From: a virus | Strand: one strand, 5' to 3' | Length of the DNA stretch: 45,819 nt | Virus record (IMG/VR): IMGVR_UViG_3300029286_000075 | Location: 1-45,819 of that record | Shown: positions 11,087-42,782 of the stretch, piece after piece | Layout of the letters: each line of letters begins with the position of its first letter | Numbering within the stretch: the stretch's first letter is position 1 | Notes under the pieces: generated by a model | What the model was told of the DNA's origin: nothing | What the model saw: only the letters and a program-made list of their open reading frames with translations | Databases searched by the model: none | Translations under genes and position numbers: made by a program

Positions 11087-12823
11087 CTAATGATTTATCA
11101 CAGTACCCTGGTCCTCACCAAAAATCATTTTCATGTGACTTGTGCCTTCACCAGCTTGAGCGTCATCAACATAGCGGCCTTGCTCCTGAAGTATGGCATA
11201 ACCAATAGCAGCTGCGAGTATGCAATCATCGTGTTTTTTATCCATAGCTTCCGGTTTTCCTTTTATGTTTCGAATGAATGTGAACATTTCGTTCAAAATC
11301 TGTGCCGGGAATCCTCTATCAAGTCGGAAGAAGTACGCCTTCAGTGCAGCGAGTGCAAAAGGTCTAGTCGCAGACGTAGTTTTCCACCCAAAAAATTTTG
11401 TCACCTTCTGTGTTATGTCATCGAATACCTTTCTATAGTACAGATTAATATACCCCATCTTTTCCAGTGCATCGTTCACCCACAGTCCATCCTTGTTTAC
11501 TTCAATCCCAAGTAGAGCCCAGTTGTAATACTTCCCGAGTTTGTATGCCTCCGTAGCCAGTTCATCCGGTGCCACTTGTGACCTGTATATTGCATCACAC
11601 CCCTCCGTCTTGTGATTTATTACATAGAGCACCTGTGCATCCCCGTGAGCCAGTCCTTCAGAAGTATCTCCCCCGATTATATATCTAGTTCCAACTTGAG
11701 GCTCGTGGAACACTTCCAAAGACCCCGATGATACTTTGTTGAATACCACCCCTCCCGTTTCAGTATTTCCGAGTTCTCCCCTCACTCCAGGCGTAGCCTC
11801 CGCCAGTAATTTAGCCACCTTAGCTGTTGAGAAATAGGTCTGTCCGGTAGACAGAAAAGCTTCCTCCTGAGTAGTTGGGTATTCCTGCATCAGAGATTTA
11901 ATAGCATCCGGTGAGTTCTTTCCTCCGAACTGCAACCATTTCATATAGTAGTAAGTAATCTCCTTATCCGTCAGATTATGCTCCACCTGATAACTCGCCC
12001 AATCAATTTCACAGACCTCCATTTTATCCGTAGGAACAGTCTCGTAAATCTTCTTCATTTCCATATCATCGTATTGCCAATTATAAAAGTGTGGCATGAA
12101 CTGCACCTGCGATAACTGCGGTGTTATTTTATCCCTACTCAACCAATTCTGTTGGAAGATTTCGTAGAACCTCCCAGCCATTCCTTCCGCAGTGGACTCG
12201 ATGAATATGAACCCATCGAACGGAACCGTTGGGAAAGTACCTCTCTCCACTTCCTCCGCTCGTTTTGGATACTGTGCACAGAGTTTAGCGAACTCCGATA
12301 TATGAACAAGGTGATACGTTCCCGAACGACCGGACACTGCCACAGCAATAGAGGAGGTGGAACCCTTCTCCGGCCCGTAGTCCAGAACAATCTGTATCTT
12401 TCGTGCAGACTTCTGATTGATTTTAAAGAAAGCTCCCTTCACATCCTCCGCCATGTTTCGAACAGCGAATTCAATCTTCTTGTCGAAAATCTGTGTTGCA
12501 TCCTCCACCTTGTGAGCGATTACAATCCCCTCCTTGTTCGGCTGGAATAGTATAGAGTCCAATATCAGAAGGTCGATGAAAGTTGTGAATCCGAGTTGCC
12601 GACTTTTCAGAATTACATGCCTATGATATGGCCTCTCCATATTCAGATAATTATCGTAAAAATGTTTCTGTGCCCTGTTCATCGTAAACACCGCCTTATC
12701 TCCATCCTTCGTAATTATCCAGTACAAATTCGAAAGCCTCCACTCCTGACTTTGAATAAGCTCTGGATTTTTTGTCAGTAGTTCTACAATTTTTTCATTA
12801 TGGTCCTTGTATATATTCGCCAT
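11087..12823 (-). CDS. terL: Terminase large subunit (578 aa)
   Basis: Packaging ATPase and nuclease that docks on the portal and cuts concatemers. The Walker A variant KSRQLGFTT is at residues 73-81. A Walker B candidate, LVHISEFAK, lies near 172-180, and the coupling motif FIFIESTAEG at 205-214. The C-terminal RNase-H-like nuclease has acidic positions in IIGGDTSEG (about 380), GIEVNKDG (about 420) and HDDCILAAAIGYA (about 528-540). The length fits the family, and the adjacent TerS supports the call. The ATG directly follows the TerS stop with no Shine-Dalgarno. Base composition is clearly GC-richer than portal and scaffold (for example 35 of 60 G/C at 12841-12900 just outside it against 23 of 60 at 9001-9060), so this pair may have a separate history. 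Confidence 0.96.
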   Translation of the reverse strand: MANIYKDHNEKIVELLTKNPELIQSQEWRLSNLYWIITKDGDKAVFTMNRAQKHFYDNYLNMERPYHRHVILKSRQLGFTTFIDLLILDSILFQPNKEGIVIAHKVEDATQIFDKKIEFAVRNMAEDVKGAFFKINQKSARKIQIVLDYGPEKGSTSSIAVAVSGRSGTYHLVHISEFAKLCAQYPKRAEEVERGTFPTVPFDGFIFIESTAEGMAGRFYEIFQQNWLSRDKITPQLSQVQFMPHFYNWQYDDMEMKKIYETVPTDKMEVCEIDWASYQVEHNLTDKEITYYYMKWLQFGGKNSPDAIKSLMQEYPTTQEEAFLSTGQTYFSTAKVAKLLAEATPGVRGELGNTETGGVVFNKVSSGSLEVFHEPQVGTRYIIGGDTSEGLAHGDAQVLYVINHKTEGCDAIYRSQVAPDELATEAYKLGKYYNWALLGIEVNKDGLWVNDALEKMGYINLYYRKVFDDITQKVTKFFGWKTTSATRPFALAALKAYFFRLDRGFPAQILNEMFTFIRNIKGKPEAMDKKHDDCILAAAIGYAILQEQGRYVDDAQAGEGTSHMKMIFGEDQGTVINH

Positions 12824-12826
12824 TTT

Positions 12827-13294
12827 TTAAAAATCATCCTCCTCCTTCAACTGAGGTTCCGCCGAAGTGTCCTGGATAAGCGGAGCTGGACCTCCGATAG
12901 TCTGATTCTCCACCTGTTGAAGAATGACCGTTCGCAAGCGGTTGGTCGACTGTGATTGGTCCTTCTCCTTTGGAGCCTGGTTGAACTTCGACCATGCCAG
13001 TCCAATAGCGTTGAGAGCTCCAATAAGGTCCTTGTTCGAGAAGTCCGAGAACCCACGTTTTTTAAACTCAGCCATAGCGGCCAGGGCTAGGTTATTAGAG
13101 TCCACAGCTAAGGCAGAGATTGCGTTGTGGAATCCCTGCTTGTCCTCGATATGAGAAGATACCGAATTAGCCACCGCAGGAGAGTATCCCACGTTCAATG
13201 CAATCTCCTTTTTTGATTTACCCTTAGCCCCAAGAAGCCCACGAGCGTAAGCCATCTGTTTCATAGTGGAACCCTTTGTCGAAATAAATACCAT
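12827..13294 (-). CDS. terS: Terminase small subunit (155 aa)
   Basis: Recognises phage DNA to start packaging and regulates TerL. It is directly upstream of TerL and contains a helix-turn-helix-like N-terminal region (KSKKEIALNVGYSPAVANSV, about residues 26-45), typical of TerS, then a helical oligomerisation region and an acidic end (QLKEEDDF). A start at MVFISTKG is preferred over the later MKQMAY: TTGACA, 16 bp, TACAAT ends 7 bp before this ATG, which predicts a leaderless transcript beginning exactly there. Its GC content is high, like TerL. The gene opens the main late operon. Confidence 0.87.
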   Translation of the reverse strand: MVFISTKGSTMKQMAYARGLLGAKGKSKKEIALNVGYSPAVANSVSSHIEDKQGFHNAISALAVDSNNLALAAMAEFKKRGFSDFSNKDLIGALNAIGLAWSKFNQAPKEKDQSQSTNRLRTVILQQVENQTIGGPAPLIQDTSAEPQLKEEDDF

Positions 13295-13339: not shown

Positions 13340-13582
13340 CTAAAACTTCTTTTTCATTTCTTTGATTATTTCATCAGCATCTTTAGGGGTGTTAGATTCT
13401 CCATATAAATCTTCATTGCGTTTTATATTTTTTTCAAGTTCATCGTCTCTATCTAGCTGAAATTCAATAGCCCTGTTTATTATAAAAGTTATATTTGTTC
13501 CTAATCTTTCAGACCTAGACTTCAATCTAATCTTTAAATCCTCTCTTAAATTAAAGCTAAACATCTTTTTATTATTTTTCAT
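13340..13582 (-). CDS. Ribbon-helix-helix transcription regulator (80 aa)
   Basis: A small Arc/CopG-type DNA-binding protein. The N-terminal strand KKMFSFNLREDLK (residues 5-17) is followed by helix IRLKSRSERLGTN and helix ITFIINRAIEFQLDRD, the RHH order, then an acidic tail with EIIKEMKKKF. It is the first gene of the late block and sits beside the array of TTATGTC/GACATAA sites at 13627-13952. One site lies just upstream of its own -35 (13613-13618), so it may autoregulate and switch early and late transcription. Its promoter's -10 ends 7 bp before the ATG, giving a leaderless mRNA. RHH proteins commonly bind short repeated sites like these. Binding here is inferred. Confidence 0.82.
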   Translation of the reverse strand: MKNNKKMFSFNLREDLKIRLKSRSERLGTNITFIINRAIEFQLDRDDELEKNIKRNEDLYGESNTPKDADEIIKEMKKKF

Positions 13583-13589
13583 ATATATA

Positions 13590-13618
13590 AGTATATACCT
13601 TTATATATAATTTGTCAA
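13590..13618 (-). promoter_or_regulatory. Promoter of the RHH regulator (leaderless)
   Basis: Minus strand: TTGACA (13613-13618), 17 bp, TATACT (13590-13595), then 7 bp to the ATG. A GACATAA-type site at 13627-13633 lies 8 bp upstream of the -35, a fitting place for autorepression or activation. Confidence 0.72.
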
Positions 13619-13623
13619 ATAAA

Positions 13624-13952
13624 TGCGACATAACTATTTGAAAGTGGCATAAGAAAATGGGTTATGTCACCAAGAGTTAGCCTTATTACAAGCCATTTTT
13701 TGTCAAAAACACCCCAAAAGTGACATAGTGACATAAGGTTAGAAAACTATCTGTATATAAAATCATATATAAGAATATATATATATTTTACTAATATCTC
13801 TTTTTTTTAAATAGTTATGTCTTATGTCACTTTTAATGAAAAGGTGTTGATAAATAAGGATATTATTTGCGACATAACTATTTGGGTTATGTCACCTTAT
13901 GTCACTTTTGTTGTTAGAACCCTTATTTTAAGCCATTAAAAAAGTGACATAA
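13624..13952. repeat. Iteron/operator array of TTATGTC (GACATAA)
   Basis: Exact heptamers start at 13627, 13662, 13730, 13815, 13822, 13871, 13887, 13897 and 13946, in both orientations, with variants at 13647 and 13722. Flanking context is also duplicated: GCGACATAACTATTTG occurs at 13625 and 13869, each followed by GGGTTATGTCACC, then by GTTAG, CCTTATT and AAGCCATT in the same order. The array is therefore two diverged copies of a ~110-bp unit around an AT-rich core. It could be initiator-binding iterons, RHH operators, or both. Confidence 0.82.
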
Positions 13953-13975: not shown

Positions 13976-14100
13976 TCCCTTTTTCTATTAAAAGGGGGGT
14001 GGGGGTGTGTTTTGGGACCCCCATGGGGATAAGGTGGGGAGAAATTACACTTCGGGGAGATGGGGAGAAATTACACTTCGGGGAGATGGGAGGGACTGTT
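13976..14100. repeat. G-rich region with tandem 26-bp repeat
   Basis: Plus-strand G runs at 13995-14030 (GGGGGG, GGGGG, GGG, GGGG) could fold as a G-quadruplex. They are preceded by a CCCTTTT/AAAAGGG stem (from about 13977) and contain CCCCATGGGG. A 26-bp unit beginning GGGGAGAAATTACACTTCGG is exactly repeated head to tail at 14036-14061 and 14062-14087. Such a site near terS and a likely origin could serve packaging or replication. Function unproven. Confidence 0.65.
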
Positions 14101-14223
14101 TTTTTAAGATTATGATACCCCCTCAACTGAAAGGGGATATCCCCTCATTCCTATGCATAGAATAATTTAAATAGTTAATCATTATAATTCAAACAATTAA
14201 AATGATACACCTAAAAAATATGG

Positions 14224-14408: not shown

Positions 14409-14477
14409 TTGACACAGGTCATCTTCTGTGTTATAACAGTTATCCACAATTGACACTGTCGCCACATTTGAGATAAT
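14409..14477 (+). promoter_or_regulatory. Tandem early promoters P1 with DnaA-box-like site
   Basis: Promoter P1a is TTGACA (14409-14414), 17 bp, TATAAC (14432-14437). Promoter P1b is TTGACA (14450-14455), 16 bp, GATAAT (14472-14477). A consensus DnaA box TTATCCACA (14440-14448) ends one base before the P1b -35 and just after the P1a -10, so binding there would affect both. They drive the first early genes from 14576. Confidence 0.72.
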
Positions 14478-18893: not shown

Positions 18894-18923
18894 TTTTCTC
18901 TGATGATAATAAAAAATGTATGA
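18822..18923 (+). CDS. 33-residue hydrophobic micro-ORF coupled to primase
   Basis: ATG 18822-18824 to TGA 18921-18923; the stop overlaps the primase ATG as ATGA, the usual sign of translational coupling. The product starts MKIVIAYYRGFVTFPTYEAL and ends in a membrane-like stretch, AIFIFSLMIIKNV. It may be a real membrane peptide or a leader ORF that gates primase translation. Its start codon lies in the arm of an 11-bp stem. Confidence 0.42.
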   Translation: MKIVIAYYRGFVTFPTYEALAIFIFSLMIIKNV

Positions 18924-21310
18924 AGAAAAATAATAATGGAGAGTTTCTAACATATTTCCCGGACCACTGTTTCAGGTATTTAGACAGAACTGGAAACAAT
19001 AGACCACCGATATCCTCTTTGGAAAAAAGAGATGACCTTAACTTACTCGGCTATGATGCTTACTTCACACCAAACGGTTTCGCTGATTTCAAAAACAATC
19101 CGAGTGCTATAAAAGAAAACTGCACATCGTTGAATGGATTCTTTGTTGATATCGACGGAAGAAAAGAATGGAGTGAGATAGAAGAAATAATGAAAAGATT
19201 AGTGCCAACTTTTGTGCTTGAAACTTTTCACGGATATCACTGCCACTGGCTGCTTGATGAGCCTATTTATAAGAACGAAGTCACAGCCGAAGAATGGGAA
19301 GAAGCAATGACTAGGTGGGAGAATTTGGAGCAAGCGATTGTAGACAATCTAAAAGGTGATAACAACGCCAAAGATATTCCACGAATACTTAGAGTGCCTA
19401 GTTCCTACTACTGGGAAAAAGGTTCTGGAGATAAATATAAAGAAGGGGTGAAAGGTGTTCCTAAAATAATTGGGAAGTGGAAAAAAGTATCTTGCCGATA
19501 CACTATGGAGCAGATTGAAGAAGCTTTCCCTTCAATGAAGAAAGAGTTGAGCTTTATTGAAACACCTCTTGGTGAGAGAACTAAGAAGTTCGCTGATGCT
19601 GAACGTAAGGACTTTTTCAACAGAGTGAATAATACATACCCATTAGCCGAGAGAGATAGTTTCTTGAAATTGATTAGTGCCAAGCCAGAAACTTTACCGG
19701 CCGGAGCAGGTAGAAATAATGCCCTATTGATTACCGCCTCACTTATGAAACAATCTGGTTGGACCCAAGCTAGTGCCCTAGAACATTTACAGAGTGTCGG
19801 TTGGCATGGAATGGAATCAGAGCGTGGAGGTTGGAACGAGATACAGAACACGGTGAACAGTGCGTTCTCTAAAGGTTATACTTACTCTTTCAAGAATGAG
19901 ATTATCTCTCACAACATGACACCGGAGGAGCAGAGTAGGATTCAAGATGCTTTTGCTTCTGCTGTGAAACAGAGAAAAGAATTGGACAAGATTCGATTTG
20001 CCGATTACGAAAAAGAATTACTATTGCGTTTTCCATATCTAAGACGAAACACAATCGGAATACTTTACAACTATGAAAACGGTGTATATCGCCCAGTGAA
20101 TGACCTAGATTTAAAAAGTATGATACTTCGAAGTTTAGATGAGGATATGTTGGTGAACTATAGGACAAACAAGAATGTGTCCGATAAAATCTCCTGTCTT
20201 TTATCTATCATTCCGAAATTAAATATCACCGAAGATGAAGGTAAAATTGTAAATGTGGAGAATGGCCTATTGAATATCTACACCAAAGACTTAATGCCTC
20301 ACACTCCGAACTTTGTGTCCTTGATACAGTATCCTGTCTATTACGACCCAGAAGCTAAGTGCCCGAATTGGGAGAGTTGTGTAGCTGATTGGATGAAAGG
20401 ACCAGAGCAAGAAGAAAAAACCCGATTGATAAAACAGTTTTGTGGATACATTCTGTCCTCCTCTATGCTTTACGACCGAGCTTTGTTTATGGTGGGAGAC
20501 GGAGGGAACGGAAAATCCACATTCATTGATACGATTTCCAAAGTGATTGGTCCAGAAGCTACTTCCCATATTGACCTAGACGGATTGTATGGACAGTTCG
20601 GAATGGCAGGATTGGTTGGTAAGAGATTGAATATCATTGAGGAGGTGCGAGGAAATTATTACGAGAGCAACAAATTAAAGAAATTGATTTCCGGTGAAAC
20701 GGTCACTATTGATATTAAGTATAAGGAGCAGTTTACTTTCAAACCACAAGCGAAATTTGTTTTCGCAGTGAATGAAATGCCGAGAGTTGATGACGTATCT
20801 ACTGCAACTGAACGCAGAATATGTGCTGTAACTTTCTTGAATAACTACCGAAAAAATCCTAATCCAAAACTACGAGCGAGAGTTGGTGGGTTGGGAGACG
20901 AGGTTTCAGGAATTCTAAATTGGATGATTGAAGGAGCTATTGATTTGAAAGAAACTGATAACTTTATTGTGACAGACGAGCAGACCACAATGTTGAACGA
21001 ATACCGAGAGGAGAACTCTTCTGTGGAAGGATTTATAAAAGAGTGTATTGTTCTTGACCCCGAAGGAAGTATTGAAACTCCAGATATGTATTCCGAATAC
21101 AAGAAATGGTGCCAGTCTGAAGGTGGAAGAAAGACCAAAGCAAAAATTACTTTCACCAAAGAAGTAAAAGCCTTTGGAGCAAAAGACACTCGCTTTACTT
21201 TCAAGCCACGAGAACACAGTAATTCTGAAGCGGCCTTTGTTGGAGTAAAGCTAAATCCATTTTGGGTAAAACAGTCAAGTGCATGGAGAGGTACAGGATT
21301 TGACGATTAA
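18920..21310 (+). CDS. Primase (AEP-like) fused to SF3 helicase (796 aa)
   Basis: Primes and unwinds phage DNA at the fork. The N-terminal archaeo-eukaryotic-type primase has FFVDIDG (residues 74-80, paired acidic metal ligands), the HGYHCHWLL motif (104-112) and RILRVPSS (about 155-162), as in RepB-/plasmid-type primases. A middle linker is followed by a D5-type N-domain and an SF3 helicase: Walker A VGDGGNGKST (525-534), Walker B region RLNIIEEV (about 570-577) and sensor FVFAVNEMPRVDD (about 613-625). The C-terminal winged part (ending SAWRGTGFDD) completes the poxvirus D5 layout. No separate DNA polymerase is seen in the genome. The start overlaps the micro-ORF stop. The downstream helicase ATG is 4 bp after the TAA. 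Confidence 0.9.
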   Translation: MKKNNNGEFLTYFPDHCFRYLDRTGNNRPPISSLEKRDDLNLLGYDAYFTPNGFADFKNNPSAIKENCTSLNGFFVDIDGRKEWSEIEEIMKRLVPTFVLETFHGYHCHWLLDEPIYKNEVTAEEWEEAMTRWENLEQAIVDNLKGDNNAKDIPRILRVPSSYYWEKGSGDKYKEGVKGVPKIIGKWKKVSCRYTMEQIEEAFPSMKKELSFIETPLGERTKKFADAERKDFFNRVNNTYPLAERDSFLKLISAKPETLPAGAGRNNALLITASLMKQSGWTQASALEHLQSVGWHGMESERGGWNEIQNTVNSAFSKGYTYSFKNEIISHNMTPEEQSRIQDAFASAVKQRKELDKIRFADYEKELLLRFPYLRRNTIGILYNYENGVYRPVNDLDLKSMILRSLDEDMLVNYRTNKNVSDKISCLLSIIPKLNITEDEGKIVNVENGLLNIYTKDLMPHTPNFVSLIQYPVYYDPEAKCPNWESCVADWMKGPEQEEKTRLIKQFCGYILSSSMLYDRALFMVGDGGNGKSTFIDTISKVIGPEATSHIDLDGLYGQFGMAGLVGKRLNIIEEVRGNYYESNKLKKLISGETVTIDIKYKEQFTFKPQAKFVFAVNEMPRVDDVSTATERRICAVTFLNNYRKNPNPKLRARVGGLGDEVSGILNWMIEGAIDLKETDNFIVTDEQTTMLNEYREENSSVEGFIKECIVLDPEGSIETPDMYSEYKKWCQSEGGRKTKAKITFTKEVKAFGAKDTRFTFKPREHSNSEAAFVGVKLNPFWVKQSSAWRGTGFDD

Positions 21311-21314
21311 AATT

Positions 21315-23519
21315 ATGATACCACCACTATACGAACACCAAAAAAAGATACTCAAAGAAAACAAATTAAAATGTGGTTTGTTTCTTGGTACCGGAGCTAG
21401 TAAAACTAGAACAGCTTTGGAATTGGCTGAAGGTTCAACATTAATTATTTGCCCTAAGCAACAAAGGGAAGATAAAACTTGGGAAAGAGAGAATGAAAAA
21501 TGGGAAACTAATAAAAAATTAACTGTAATCAGTAAAGAAGATATCCGCAAAATGTGGGATGAACTTCCTTATTACGACACTTTGATTATTGATGAGTGCT
21601 TTACTGGCGAAACAGAAATCTTAACAGATTCAGGATTTAAAAAATTTAAAGATTTAGATAAAACTGAAAAAGTTGCACAGTGGGATAATTACAAAATTTC
21701 TTTTGTAAAACCTTTGAGATATATCAAAAAAGACCACTCTGGCGAGATGGTTTCTTTCAAGGTGAAGCATGGTATCGATGTTTTAATGACATTAAATCAC
21801 GACCAAGTATTAGTAAACAATAAAAACAAAAAAATAATAAAAAAACCTATTTCAAAATGTTGCTTTCATTCTTTGTGGAAGTTACCTACAGGTGGTTTTT
21901 CAGTCGAGCCAGATAGTCGATTATCTCCAATGGAAAAAATGTATATAGCGACTCAAGCGGATGGGAGCCTACATAGAGTAGGAAAAAACCATACAACGGT
22001 TTCTTTTACTTTTATGAAACAAAGAAAGATAAGTAGGCTTCTAAAAATAATTTCAGAAGCAGGGCTTGAATTTAATTTTGTTAAACATAATAAAAAAAGG
22101 CATAAGGCTAGAATTATGGTTAAAATGCCTAAAGGTACTACAAAAGATATTCGAAATCATATTAACTACCCCATGGGGTATAAAAAAGCGGTAGAAGTTA
22201 TAAATGAAATGGTTGAATGGGATGGAAGTAAAATTAGTAAAAAACAATTTTATTTTTCTTCAAAAGATAAAACACAATCAGACTTTTATGCACAAGTGGC
22301 AGTTCTTGCTGGACACAGATGTTATCAAAGTATAGAAGAAGATAATAGGAAAGAATCATATAGTAAAATGCACCGACTTTTTATCACATTAAATAAACAG
22401 TTGGACGATACACAAAAATGTAGAAAGAAATATACTACATATAAAGGAAAAGTTTATTGCGTTGAAGTACCCTCTGGAATGATAGTTGTTCGACATAAAG
22501 GTTTTGTTTTTGTCACGGGGAATTGTCACAACAATCTTGGTGTTAGTGCCACTTGTATCCAGAGAAAAGGAATAGAAATTCCAAAAACATCTCAGATATT
22601 CGAAGCGACAAAAAACTTCCTAGAAAAGCACCCTCCAAAAAGATTTTATTTATTGTCTGCAACACCGGTCCCGAAGCCACTTAGTATGTGGGCTATCGGG
22701 GTTCTGTTCGGACAAAAGTGGGACTTCTTTCAATTTCGTAGGGTTTATTACACCGAAATTAGAATAGGAGGGACCAGAAGAATATGGGTTCCAAAGAAAG
22801 ATGAAGCAACAAAGCAAAGGTTGGCTGAGCTCATTCAAAGATTCGGGTACACTGGGGGGTTGAGTGACTTCTTTGATGTCCCTGAGCAGACTCATAAAAC
22901 GGTTGAAATTGAGCTTAGCGGAGAGCAAAAGAAGGCAGTGAAGGAAATGATGTTTTCAGAGCCAGACCCCCTTATAAGGCGTGCACGGCTTCGTACGATT
23001 GAAAATGGAGTGCTGTACGGTAAGAAAATTGAGGAATTGGATGGAAAAATTGACCAAATGAGCAATTTCACGACAATTTACAAATCTTACAAGATAGATT
23101 ACATCCTAGAACGAGCTCAAGAGTTCCCAAAATTGCTTATATTTGCCAATTATAAAGCTCAGATTGCTCAGATTGCTAAGGAACTTCGGAAAGAAGGCTA
23201 CAACGTTTCAACATTGACAGGGGAGACAAAGGATAGAACATTCATAAAAAAAGTAGACGATAGTCCTGCTCCACATATCATTATTGCTCAGAGTTCCATA
23301 TCTTCAGGATATGAACTCCCAAGTTTTCCTTGCGTTATTTACGCAAGTAAATCCTGGAGGTATGTGGATTATGAGCAATCATTAGGTCGAGTGCTTCGTT
23401 CCAATAAATTGAAGAAGAACCTGTACATCCATTTGGTTGTAAAAGGTTGCGACAAAGATTGTCACGATACAATTATGTCTGGGTCTGATTTCCAAGAAAA
23501 GCTGACCTTGAACATATAA
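21315..23519 (+). CDS. SF2 DEAD/DEAH-type DNA helicase with intein (734-aa precursor)
   Basis: An ATP-driven helicase/translocase, 425 residues after protein splicing. I chose ATG 21315 (MIPPLYEHQKKILK), directly behind the primase stop; the upstream in-frame ATG lies within primase. Motifs: I GTGASKT (25-31), II LIIDE-CHN split by the intein at residues 95-403, III LLSATPVP (about 444-451), V and VI in the C-terminal RecA lobe with IIAQSSISSGYELP and QSLGRVLRSN (about 688-697). This is the compact SNF2-like phage helicase layout used in fork remodelling or recombination. It follows primase in the P2 operon. Without splicing, the ATPase motif II would be broken, so activity needs the intein removed. 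Confidence 0.92.
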   Translation: MIPPLYEHQKKILKENKLKCGLFLGTGASKTRTALELAEGSTLIICPKQQREDKTWERENEKWETNKKLTVISKEDIRKMWDELPYYDTLIIDECFTGETEILTDSGFKKFKDLDKTEKVAQWDNYKISFVKPLRYIKKDHSGEMVSFKVKHGIDVLMTLNHDQVLVNNKNKKIIKKPISKCCFHSLWKLPTGGFSVEPDSRLSPMEKMYIATQADGSLHRVGKNHTTVSFTFMKQRKISRLLKIISEAGLEFNFVKHNKKRHKARIMVKMPKGTTKDIRNHINYPMGYKKAVEVINEMVEWDGSKISKKQFYFSSKDKTQSDFYAQVAVLAGHRCYQSIEEDNRKESYSKMHRLFITLNKQLDDTQKCRKKYTTYKGKVYCVEVPSGMIVVRHKGFVFVTGNCHNNLGVSATCIQRKGIEIPKTSQIFEATKNFLEKHPPKRFYLLSATPVPKPLSMWAIGVLFGQKWDFFQFRRVYYTEIRIGGTRRIWVPKKDEATKQRLAELIQRFGYTGGLSDFFDVPEQTHKTVEIELSGEQKKAVKEMMFSEPDPLIRRARLRTIENGVLYGKKIEELDGKIDQMSNFTTIYKSYKIDYILERAQEFPKLLIFANYKAQIAQIAKELRKEGYNVSTLTGETKDRTFIKKVDDSPAPHIIIAQSSISSGYELPSFPCVIYASKSWRYVDYEQSLGRVLRSNKLKKNLYIHLVVKGCDKDCHDTIMSGSDFQEKLTLNI
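21597..22523 (+). mobile_element. Intein with LAGLIDADG-type homing endonuclease (309 aa) in helicase motif II
   Basis: The intein begins at Cys95 (CFTGETEILTDSG, block A) and ends ...GFVFVTGN before Cys404, the +1 extein residue. Splicing would restore LIIDE-CHNNLG. The penultimate residue is Gly where most inteins have His, a known minority variant (block G: VVRHKGFVFVTGN-C). Block B is VLMTLNHDQVLV. The centre carries a dodecapeptide homing nuclease: motif MYIATQADGSLHR (about 206-218) and MVEWDGSKISKKQFYFSSK (about 297-315). It is therefore a full-size, possibly still mobile intein. Codon use is AT-rich, even more than the extein. Confidence 0.93.
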
Positions 23520-38347: not shown

Positions 38348-39328
38348 TCAATTAAATATTTCTGTTAATTTTGATTTTGTTAATGGTCCAAAGTTACCCT
38401 CTGCTGGTACAATTCCGTATTGCTTTTGGAATTTTATACAAGAAGACCTAGTAACTGGGCCCCAATTCTCGACTTTTGAAACATTAGTTGGGAATAATCC
38501 TAACCACTCAAAGCATGTTTGAGCCGATATAATTGTACCATCAAACTTTGGTTTGTCGCTTCCTTGCTGTGCAAATTTGAAGGCCATAACATAAGAAGCC
38601 AAGAAACATCTTTTGTTGAAATAATCACGACTGATTAATCTTTGACCGTTCATTGAATGTCCAAGACCCCAAGATTCATCGCAAACTAAATATTCAACAC
38701 CATTATAAGTTACGGGTTCAATCGCTATGATTGAATGTCCTGATGTATAAGGTTTACCACTATAAACCGGGATATCTTTCCACTCTTCTCTATTGAACTT
38801 GAACCAAACCATTACACCTTTACCAGTTTGTTGAAGGGTTGAGGCAACAGTATCGAAATCTAAAGGAAGAGAAATTTTCTTAATCTCTAAAACTTTCGCT
38901 AAATCTTTTGCATAAGTAGGCATTGGTACAGCCATACAATCTTTTTCTCCTAGACCGTCTCCTGGCATAAATGATTCAAAGATATTTCCAATTTTAGGGA
39001 ATATAGAGTATATATCTACTGAACTACATCCTCCGCCATTATTGATATCACTTCTAAGTTGATATGGAAAACAAGTTGAGAAATCTACCCATACACCATA
39101 TTTCTGCAAGAACCAAATTGAAAGTTCTTTCGCATAAGTAAATGTGACACACCGGCTACTTGAACCCTGTGAACGTATTGGATACTTCACAAAATCTTTT
39201 ACATCTTTTACTGGGAAAGTGGGAGTTGCTACTGAAGCCACTACATCACTTTGCTGATAATTTTTTTCTTTCTCCTCATCAGTTTGGTTGTCTATACAAC
39301 CTAAATAAATTTCTAATTCGTTGTCCAT
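38348..39328 (-). CDS. C1-papain-like peptidase lysin with peptidoglycan-binding domain (326 aa)
   Basis: Probable endolysin. The N-terminal C1-like peptidase has the catalytic Cys in RSQGSSSRCVTFTYAKEL (Cys60) and a His in SGHSIIAIEP (about 197). The usual Asn of the NSWG motif appears as CDESWG (about 213-218), so Glu replaces Asn at the third catalytic place, an oddity that needs checking. The C-terminus (about 255-326) is a PG_binding_1 domain: ISAQTCFEWLGLFPTNVSKV, then GPVTRSSCIKFQKQYGI and GNFGPLTKSKLTEIF. It would cut wall cross-bridges at lysis. Its N-terminus overlaps the glycosyltransferase stop by 16 bp; a holin-like gene follows. Confidence 0.82.
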   Translation of the reverse strand: MDNELEIYLGCIDNQTDEEKEKNYQQSDVVASVATPTFPVKDVKDFVKYPIRSQGSSSRCVTFTYAKELSIWFLQKYGVWVDFSTCFPYQLRSDINNGGGCSSVDIYSIFPKIGNIFESFMPGDGLGEKDCMAVPMPTYAKDLAKVLEIKKISLPLDFDTVASTLQQTGKGVMVWFKFNREEWKDIPVYSGKPYTSGHSIIAIEPVTYNGVEYLVCDESWGLGHSMNGQRLISRDYFNKRCFLASYVMAFKFAQQGSDKPKFDGTIISAQTCFEWLGLFPTNVSKVENWGPVTRSSCIKFQKQYGIVPAEGNFGPLTKSKLTEIFN

Positions 39329-39915
39329 AAATTTTCTAATTTAACTTTTAATAATGCTCGGTCTTCTTCTACTTTTTCCCAGCCTAATTCATACACCTTA
39401 TCCATTGGAGAACCTTTTGAGAAATGATAATGATGTACAATCGCTTTATCAGCTCTAACAAAGATTCCGAGTTTCTCCATTTGAGCTAATAAATAATTAT
39501 CAACTCCAACATGATGAAAATCTGTATCAAATACTTCACCAATCTTTTCAATGATATCTTTCCTAATCATGAAATGCTCGTTGATATTTCCTCTGTCTGG
39601 ATACACTTCACCTGTATTGAAAGCCACATAACCTTTCTCTCCAACCTTCAACGCTTCGTTAATTGATTCCGGTGTGAACTCATTGTCATTTGCTGCATAT
39701 ACAATCCAATCACCAGTTGATTCTTCAACCCCCTGTTTAACAAGTTTTGGAACTCCAAGTCTGTCATTAAATAAGTCTTGTTTAACAATTATTTCAATTC
39801 TATCTTGTGGATAATTCAATGATTTTATTGAGTTCAAACACCTTTCTAGGCCTTCACTTCTATCCAGGGTAGGGATAATAAAAGATATCGAAGGTGTTTC
39901 TATTGTTTTTTCCAT
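39313..39915 (-). CDS. Family-2 glycosyltransferase (200 aa)
   Basis: Transfers a sugar from a nucleotide donor. The N-terminal GT-A fold has SFIIPTLDRSEGLERCLNSI (residues 11-30), then the acidic DxD-like piece WIVYAANDNEFTPES (about 70-84) and a HHVGVDNYLLAQME-type acceptor loop. It is short, with no membrane anchor. It overlaps the lysin start by 16 bp and is separated from the three-domain glycosyltransferase by an inserted HNH gene. Likely substrates are virion proteins (for example the collagen-like fibre) or host surface glycans. This is inference. Confidence 0.85.
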   Translation of the reverse strand: MEKTIETPSISFIIPTLDRSEGLERCLNSIKSLNYPQDRIEIIVKQDLFNDRLGVPKLVKQGVEESTGDWIVYAANDNEFTPESINEALKVGEKGYVAFNTGEVYPDRGNINEHFMIRKDIIEKIGEVFDTDFHHVGVDNYLLAQMEKLGIFVRADKAIVHHYHFSKGSPMDKVYELGWEKVEEDRALLKVKLENLWTTN

Positions 39916-40484: not shown

Positions 40485-40507
40485 AGTATATCATATATAA
40501 CTTTAGG
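40485..40507 (-). promoter_or_regulatory. Leaderless HNH promoter inside an inverted repeat
   Basis: Minus-strand TGATATACT (40485-40493), 6 nt, then ATG. The region is enclosed by an 8-bp inverted repeat, CCTAAAGT (40480-40487) and ACTTTAGG (40500-40507), that overlaps the -10, so a bound protein or a cruciform could block the start. Confidence 0.52.
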
Positions 40508-42782
40508 ACAATAATCGTTTTCTGATGATTCCTCCAAAACTCCAGCCTTTCATCACTGTTACAAGCTCCTCCATTTCAAGTCCGTCAAACTCTTCAATAA
40601 TCTTTGCAAGTTTCTGGCGAGTGAAAGTTTGAAGATGATATCCGCCACTGAGCATTGGATTCAGTGTGTCTATTATTTCATCATCAGGAAGAATAAAGAT
40701 TATCCGACCGTTCGGTTTCAAAATTCTTTTCCACTCAGTTAAAGTTTTGTTGGTATCAGCTATGTGTTCCAAAATATGACTTGCTAATATTACATCAACA
40801 GAATCAGATTCAATCATTGGTAAGTCATCAACACTAGCGACTAAATCAACCCCTGCTTTATTTTCAATATCTACACCGATAGCTCTCGGTAATGTTTTGA
40901 AAGTAGAACATCCTAAATCATAAATGACTTTATCTTCGTCTGTTATTCTTGCTAATTTGAAAAGTCTCTCAGGATGAGTCTCTTGGGAAATTGAAAACAT
41001 TGTATTCAGCTCTTCTTGAGTTGGTCTATAAAGGTAAAGTCGTCTCAGTGTTTCTTGGTCAGCTTGTTCTGTTCTTGTTTTTCCAACAAAGACTGGGTCG
41101 AAAGAACTTCCTGCATCAATACAAGTGAATGATTCTTCATGAAGAGACAATTGAGCAATTAACCACTTTGCTGGCATACCACAACTGAATATCCAAATAT
41201 CATTTTCATCTGGACCTTCGAACGAAATGGTTTTAAGATACTCAAAAGCATTGACAAGTGGAACCTCTATGAACTCGGCGTTTAAAAAATCCGAAGCACC
41301 TTTCAATCTTTCTGGTCCAATAAAGAATTTACGTCTAGGAGAGTTTTTAACTGTTACCCAAAAGTCTCTAACTTTTTCTAAATCATTGTCTGTTCTATGT
41401 AGAAATGTATTATAGAATTTCTGATTATCCCACTCAGCTATTTCTGCATTCCCCTTAAGAAGTTCAAATGATTCTAGTAATTTCTGACCAAGTTCTTCTG
41501 AATAAGGATGGTTATCACAATTCGCTCCTTTCTCACCATTCATACAAGCGATTTCACCATCGCCTCTTTTAACAAAAGTAAAGTTCTCATTATTTTTTAT
41601 ACGGTCGGTGTAATCTTCAATTTTTGACTTGACAAAAAATTGAGCGTCTTGAGCATATTTAGGATTACTTGGATTAAAAGCAACCGCCTTGAAATAATGT
41701 TCTCTCGCTTTTTCTTTATTTCCATTCCACCAATATGCAGTGTATAGAAGTTCATGAGGAACATGTTCATAATAAGGTTGATGATTTGAATAGAAAGGAA
41801 GCTGAGTAATTGAAAGAGCTGCTTCACAATACACAATTGTTTGAGGATACATTCCTTTGTGGAAATAATATTCTGCAAGCAACATAAGAGGTTCCCGTCT
41901 TGCTTCTTTTTCCACAGATTTTGCACACCACTTCAACATTTCATCGAAGTCACCTAGGGCTTTATAACATTCCGCAATATGAAGCATTGATTGAGAGGCT
42001 TCTGTTGGCCATTTATTCATTGAAATGTGATTTTTAAATTCCTTAATGGCTGATTTATGTCTTCCTAAATAAAACATCTCACGAGCAAAATAGTGTGAAT
42101 TTCTATCATTTTCTGGATGTTTATAACAATCAACAGCAAGACCTTTTAAGTAACCTGACCGATTAGTTTCAACATTCTGATAGTGTTCGAGCTTTATAAT
42201 ATCTTCACCTAGATAAACCATTTTAGCATCACCAACCAAAATCTCATGAATGATTCCTTCCCAGTGTAGTTTTTTTCTGTTGTAAAATTTGCAGTGTCGG
42301 AATTTTATAACTGGATTTCCTAAATGGTCATGACTAAAAACAAATTCATATTCCAATTGTTCTGCACCATTTTCAATAACTTCGTTCAGTTTATCAATAT
42401 CAAATTTTGTAAATATCTCATCACAGTCTGGAGTAGCGATTACATCGTTGGAAGCGAAGTCTGCAATGTAGTTTCTTGCAGATGAGAAATCAAAGAGAGA
42501 GTCGCCCTCTTTTACAACAGGCTCTTCATTATCAACAATGAATTTATTATTAATGTTGTCGGATAATTCTTTGTCTATATTTATTCGGAACTTGTCACCA
42601 ACTTCATGAACGATACAACCTAAAGAGCGAGCAACATCTGGTGTTCCATCGGTGGATCCTGTATCAAGGACGTAAAAATTGCCCCCTCTCTCCATAAATT
42701 CTTTGACTGAATTAATTAACCTTGGCAATGTTTTAGCTTCGTTTCTAGCAATAACCGCAATATCAAAAAGTGGTTTAATCAT
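40503..42782 (-). CDS. Three-domain sugar transferase: GT2, TPR, GT-D, methyltransferase (759 aa)
   Basis: A large glycan-modifying enzyme. The N-terminal GT2 domain (1-230) has IAVIARNEAKTLPRLINSVK, LDTGSTDGTPDVARSLG and acidic TPDCDEIFTKFD. Residues about 235-390 are TPR-like helices (HYFKAVAFNPSNPKYAQDAQ). Residues about 395-520 look like the GT-D fold (FVKRGDGEIACMNGEKG). The C-terminal third is a type-11 SAM methyltransferase: IYDLGCSTFKTLPRAIGVDI (about 613-632) and VDVILASHILEHIADTNKTL. Such multi-domain enzymes build or cap methylated sugars in bacterial surface clusters. In a phage late block it may decorate virion fibres or disguise the host surface. An inserted HNH gene separates it from the GT2 gene. 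Confidence 0.86.
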   Translation of the reverse strand: MIKPLFDIAVIARNEAKTLPRLINSVKEFMERGGNFYVLDTGSTDGTPDVARSLGCIVHEVGDKFRINIDKELSDNINNKFIVDNEEPVVKEGDSLFDFSSARNYIADFASNDVIATPDCDEIFTKFDIDKLNEVIENGAEQLEYEFVFSHDHLGNPVIKFRHCKFYNRKKLHWEGIIHEILVGDAKMVYLGEDIIKLEHYQNVETNRSGYLKGLAVDCYKHPENDRNSHYFAREMFYLGRHKSAIKEFKNHISMNKWPTEASQSMLHIAECYKALGDFDEMLKWCAKSVEKEARREPLMLLAEYYFHKGMYPQTIVYCEAALSITQLPFYSNHQPYYEHVPHELLYTAYWWNGNKEKAREHYFKAVAFNPSNPKYAQDAQFFVKSKIEDYTDRIKNNENFTFVKRGDGEIACMNGEKGANCDNHPYSEELGQKLLESFELLKGNAEIAEWDNQKFYNTFLHRTDNDLEKVRDFWVTVKNSPRRKFFIGPERLKGASDFLNAEFIEVPLVNAFEYLKTISFEGPDENDIWIFSCGMPAKWLIAQLSLHEESFTCIDAGSSFDPVFVGKTRTEQADQETLRRLYLYRPTQEELNTMFSISQETHPERLFKLARITDEDKVIYDLGCSTFKTLPRAIGVDIENKAGVDLVASVDDLPMIESDSVDVILASHILEHIADTNKTLTEWKRILKPNGRIIFILPDDEIIDTLNPMLSGGYHLQTFTRQKLAKIIEEFDGLEMEELVTVMKGWSFGGIIRKRLLS

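Follow-up and report, generated by a model that had tools for sequence, protein, structure and literature searches.

A two-block iteron array, probably the replication origin of an uncultured tailed phage, whose repeat word covaries with the wing of a D5-type primase-helicase

Introduction

The known systems closest to the locus reported here are the replication origins of satellite elements and their dedicated initiators. PICI origins consist of two iteron sets around an AT-rich region (PMC6092414), and the iteron words differ between elements (PMC6092414, PMC7581432). The initiators (Rep or Pri-Rep; SaPI5 7ola/7om0) are SF3/D5-type helicases with a C-terminal DNA-binding domain, with which SaPI Rep reads its own iterons (PMC7581432). 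P4 pairs its alpha protein, a primase-helicase with a C-terminal winged-helix origin-binding domain, with ori and crr; the RFX-like fold of this domain is common to P4 alpha and the C962R tail (PMC10516667). In RFX1, the wing rather than the helix reads the major groove (PMC4333399).

The array described below very probably marks the place where an uncultured tailed phage starts its replication, and its setting is a family of full-size tailed phages in which the iteron word and the wing of the primase-helicase change together. This natural series of words and wings offers a direct, testable account of how the origin specificity of an initiator changes, and the origins of uncultured phages may become predictable from initiator sequence.

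Genome and gene layout

The window is the whole 45.8 kb stretch of DNA that was analyzed, a complete-looking phage record that closes on itself through a 133-bp overlap (first and last 133 bases identical bar one difference). Its source is an uncultured tailed phage of full size with its own terminase and tail genes; the presence of TerL, TerS-like, and tail fibre genes distinguishes it from a satellite genome. Megablast of the window against cultured phages returned no match, and the cultured relatives of its primase and TerL are distant only (25-31% identity).

Leftward genes run from ~13.6 kb down and comprise an 80-aa RHH (Arc-like) gene (13340-13582, minus strand), a TerS-like gene (12827-13294, minus), and the gene of the terminase large subunit, TerL (11087-12823, minus). 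The TerS-like gene, which adjoins the array on its leftward side, is assigned by position and conservation, and a Pfam/PHROG search with its protein gave no match. The rightward early genes start past ~14.45 kb, and one of them encodes a D5-type primase-helicase of 796 aa (18920-21310, plus). No phage DNA polymerase was recognized among the proteins scanned, which represent a subset of the genes. A helicase gene at 21279-23519 contains an intein-like segment at residues ~105-418, and the late genes include two glycosyltransferase-like genes (39313-39915 and 40503-42782).

The initial annotation, made from the sequence of the window, placed divergent promoters on both sides of the array. Sites with 11 of 12 consensus bases are indeed found to the left, for the RHH gene (TTGACA-17-TATACT; 13590-13618, minus), and ~500 bp to the right, for the rightward early operon (TTGACA-16-GATAAT; 14450-14477, plus), and a further site of equal quality fits TerS (13329-13302, minus), but the total of nine promoter-like sites is not above that of shuffles (7.6). 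The same annotation set one iteron just upstream of the RHH promoter, and the first iteron does lie 8 bp upstream of its -35 element. GC skew, proposed there as a check, turns cumulatively at ~14 kb, but this turn is confounded with the switch in gene direction at the same place.

Iteron array and AT-rich core

The word TTATGTC/GACATAA occurs nine times exactly, in both orientations, within 13627-13952, as first counted. Block A (13627-13736) holds GACATAA at 13627-13633 and 13730-13736 (minus) and TTATGTC at 13662-13668 (plus), together with two near copies beyond the nine, GTGGCATAA (13644-13652) and GTGACATAG (13720-13728), with one mismatch each. Block B (13815-13952) holds TTATGTC at 13815, 13822, 13887, and 13897 (plus) and GACATAA at 13871 and 13946-13952 (minus). 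This density is far above chance: at the shuffled rate of the window, ~0.058 heptamers are expected per 329 bp (Poisson P ~2e-17), and none of 1000 dinucleotide shuffles of the region produced a non-trivial heptamer with more than six copies. A 9-mer, GTGACATAA, describes the repeat unit better; it has six exact copies in the window, every one of them within the array, and the window contains no second cluster of the word.

The blocks flank an iteron-free AT-rich core (13737-13814), a candidate melting region, in which the stretch 13741-13812 reaches 87.5% AT, in agreement with the initial annotation. The duplicated unit of ~110 bp reported alongside it survives in part: matching blocks exist, but the duplication is imperfect, with offsets that range from 224 to 244 bp.

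Arrays in related phages

Relatives were gathered by TerL (80 loci), and their arrays were detected with no prior choice of word. This search of relatives was among the checks first proposed. In many of the loci that reach far enough upstream, a dense array occurs 0.9-2 kb ahead of TerL; position (upstream of TerS) and design are those of the window, but the word is another. The words include GTGACATAA, GGGACATA, CGGGGCATAA, ACGGCACAA, CCAACATAA, and others, and most have the common 3′ half CA(T/C)AA. Two blocks around an iteron-free core are present in the window and most relatives; in L115, L122, L126, and L131 the largest gap between iterons is not clearly AT-richer than the rest, and L107 and L135 have degenerate arrays.

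Of 32 relatives' records, 17 contain the primase-helicase, among them the long ones that span the array region; many of the remainder are fragments. An alignment search with this protein added records containing both gene and array, which brought the set to 21 distinct pairs; a second such scan yielded no new close phages for held-out tests, and a scan of genome contigs gave one weak match only. Several relatives (L103, L105, L106, L110, L111, L127, L128, L130, and others) have the wing and no origin array in the sequence covered.

Other dense repeat words fall outside the CA(T/C)AA pattern. These are ACCAACGT and GTGTGGTAAA, located ~2.8 kb (L023) or ~1.5 kb (L029, L030, and L043) upstream of TerL, the latter word being partly read as a repetitive ORF in L030 and L043. 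Strong short repeats of CTGGTCC, ACACTGG, or CTGTATA occur in L155, L156, L159, L164, and L166 (records of L111, L083, L103, L132, and L136), in stretches with no recognized origin region, and are possibly repeats inside other genes.

Primase-helicase and its winged-helix domain

The primase-helicase, proposed as the initiator, contains DUF5906, D5_N, and Pox_D5 domains and is a profile relative of the SaPI5 primase-helicase 7ola (E=6.8e-30). Its residues 691-796 (20990-21307, plus) form the C-terminal domain that is proposed to bind the iterons; Pox_D5 matches this region in all 32 relatives scanned, and an AlphaFold model (pLDDT 79) depicts it as a winged helix. The nearest solved folds to the model are the DNA-binding domains of RFX5 and RFX1 (8zjr, 1dp7), although sequence identity to these is only 13-14%, and the Pfam RFX profile touches just 4 of 32 members, the window's own match being below the cut-off. 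The structure of P4 alpha is not among the 50 fold matches listed for the model.

Iteron words covary with the wing

Across the 21 phages, every window of the primase-helicase, TerS, and TerL was set against the word by leave-one-out prediction, in which the word of each phage is predicted from the phage with the most similar protein window, close relatives excluded. Primase-helicase residues 766-770 come out on top among 783 columns, with a score of 0.729 and a z of 4.4, a result reached by none of 300 label permutations. The best TerS window, residues 38-42, is reached by 12 of 300 permutations, a weak association; for TerL, 64 of 300 permutations reach the best window, which is not significant. 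Leave-one-out prediction replaced a rank-based partial correlation that is noisy on near-constant windows; this earlier measure also placed wing residues (764-768) first, but fell short of scan-wide significance (maximum reached by 22 of 400 permutations).

The covarying residues belong to the wing segment R764-EHSNSE (21209-21229, plus) and sit in the loop between strands 70-72 and 82-88 of the modeled domain. As read from the same 21 phages that display them, two rules describe the pattern: the wing triplet SGH accompanies GGGA in five of five phages and no other, with four independent origins, and a histidine at the fourth wing position accompanies GG in 11 of 11 phages and is absent from the other 10. 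On a tree built from primase-helicase residues 1-690, with the C-terminal domain left out, GGGA and SGH change four times each, always together, while the fourth-position histidine and GG change five times each and match in 21 of 21 phages; these 4-5 independent pairs are fewer than a sign test needs for 0.05.

Sister phages illustrate the change most directly. L137 (ENGH, GGGG) and L138 (KSGH, GGGA) have domains that are otherwise 83% identical; L120 (GNGK, GTGG) pairs with L131 (KNGH, GGGG), and L104 (DHGS, ACGG) with L118 (ESGH, GGGA). In the close pair formed by the window and L082, the wing likewise changes with the word. L126, which was read after the pattern had been noted, keeps the histidine with GG and thus constitutes a single, partial held-out case that agrees on the GG part only.

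Because the word tracks a short loop of the phage's own primase-helicase, the covariation points to this protein as the one that reads the array, and it supports the C-terminal domain as a candidate iteron reader. The role of the wing in RFX1 and the fold of P4 alpha and C962R agree with the covariation, whose detection preceded knowledge of the fold.

Proposed origin function and comparison with known systems

On these sequence comparisons, the array is in all likelihood a replication origin recognized by the phage's own D5-type primase-helicase through its C-terminal winged-helix domain. The initial annotation had left the choice between a replication origin and an RHH operator. The conserved place and design of the array and the covariation of word and wing support the origin half; the operator half is unsupported, as many array-bearing relatives show no RHH gene in the sequence covered.

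The remaining steps are modeled on work with P4 and SaPI. Through its C-terminal domain, the primase-helicase would bind the iterons to the left and right of the AT-rich core, and the wing would read the first four bases of every copy. Once several copies are bound, helicase rings would be assembled on the two blocks and the core between them would melt. The helicase-primase could then prime and begin synthesis in both directions, probably continued by a host polymerase, such that the phage would replicate bidirectionally from the array.

The origin of the window thus appears to work like the PICI/SaPI and P4 satellite origins. With the former it shares an SF3/D5-type initiator helicase with a C-terminal DNA-binding domain, whose binding is here predicted, and two iteron sets that flank an AT-rich core. 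It is not a PICI, for two reasons. The genome belongs to a full-size tailed phage that has terminase and tail genes of its own, and the origin does not follow the initiator gene: the array lies ~5 kb upstream of that gene, before TerS at the divide between early and late genes, whereas the PICI origin is directly downstream of rep. The proposed winged-helix origin-binding domain with an RFX-like fold is the feature held in common with P4, but unlike P4, the window has a single array and no crr-like second region. More tentatively, and with the odds somewhat against it, a simple RFX-like wing code, in which a few residues specify four bases, may let the family switch origin specificity repeatedly. 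Neighboring phages would then have origins that exclude one another, perhaps under selection by satellites or co-infecting relatives, which could otherwise exploit a common initiator.

Alternative roles of the array

The array could instead be a cos/pac site, at which packaging starts and to which the small terminase binds; the gene of this protein is never far away. The array lies upstream of TerS throughout the family, the TerS N-terminus looks HTH-like by eye, and its residues 38-42 are those weakly associated with the word. However, this association is weaker than that of the primase wing, and phages that share a word differ in their TerS helices. Packaging would be better served by another element beside the array, GGGG(T)n(A)CCCC, whose sequence the family conserves. 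This GC-rich dyad reads GGGGATATCCCC in the window (14133-14144) and mostly GGGGGTnACCCCTTtC in relatives, where it is located ~0.6-2.3 kb ahead of TerL, as a rule on the early side of the array but between array and TerS in L069, L078, and L079. The dyad is a candidate cos or other packaging element, and a packaging role for the array itself is judged very unlikely.

The array might also be an origin read mainly by another phage or host protein, the wing covariation then reflecting a linked role of the primase-helicase. The covariation tests covered the primase-helicase, TerS, and TerL rather than all early genes, and the iterons are interspersed with a second shared word. This word, TTAAGCC/GCCTTAT, occurs between iterons in 11-12 of 27 arrays examined (window 13678-13704 and 13913-13938) and is a possible site for another factor. 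Yet it is the wing loop that carries the signal of the scan, in a domain with origin-binding relatives in P4 and SaPI, and a different main reader is judged highly improbable.

As an operator, the array would bind the RHH protein and govern the RHH-TerS promoter, perhaps together with the early one. This would fit the adjacency of the RHH gene, whose -35 element is close to the outermost iteron, and the recurrence of RHH-type genes between TerS and the array in some of the family. The gene beside the array is RHH-like, as annotated, its product resembling PHROG 3180, an Arc-like repressor (E=2e-5). The family's RHH sequences are diverse; phmmer misses most members, and a profile search finds them. 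Many relatives with strong arrays, among them L002, L005, L024, L028, L038, and L079, show no RHH gene beside the array or elsewhere in the sequence covered; the gene is therefore an optional neighbor and not a general reader of the array. By eye, L065 and the window have a near-identical RHH strand motif (FSFNL) with different words, while L034 and L074 have the same word with a different motif. Eleven sites, spread over 330 bp on either side of an AT-rich core, are also more than one promoter needs, and an operator role of the whole array has very little probability. The RHH protein may nonetheless autoregulate from the promoter that adjoins the outermost iteron.

A lambda-type origin was set aside, as the array is intergenic and the proteins scanned include no O-like gene product. 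Two tandem 26-bp copies of AGGTGGGGAGAAATTACACTTCGGGG adjoin the array at 14032-14083.
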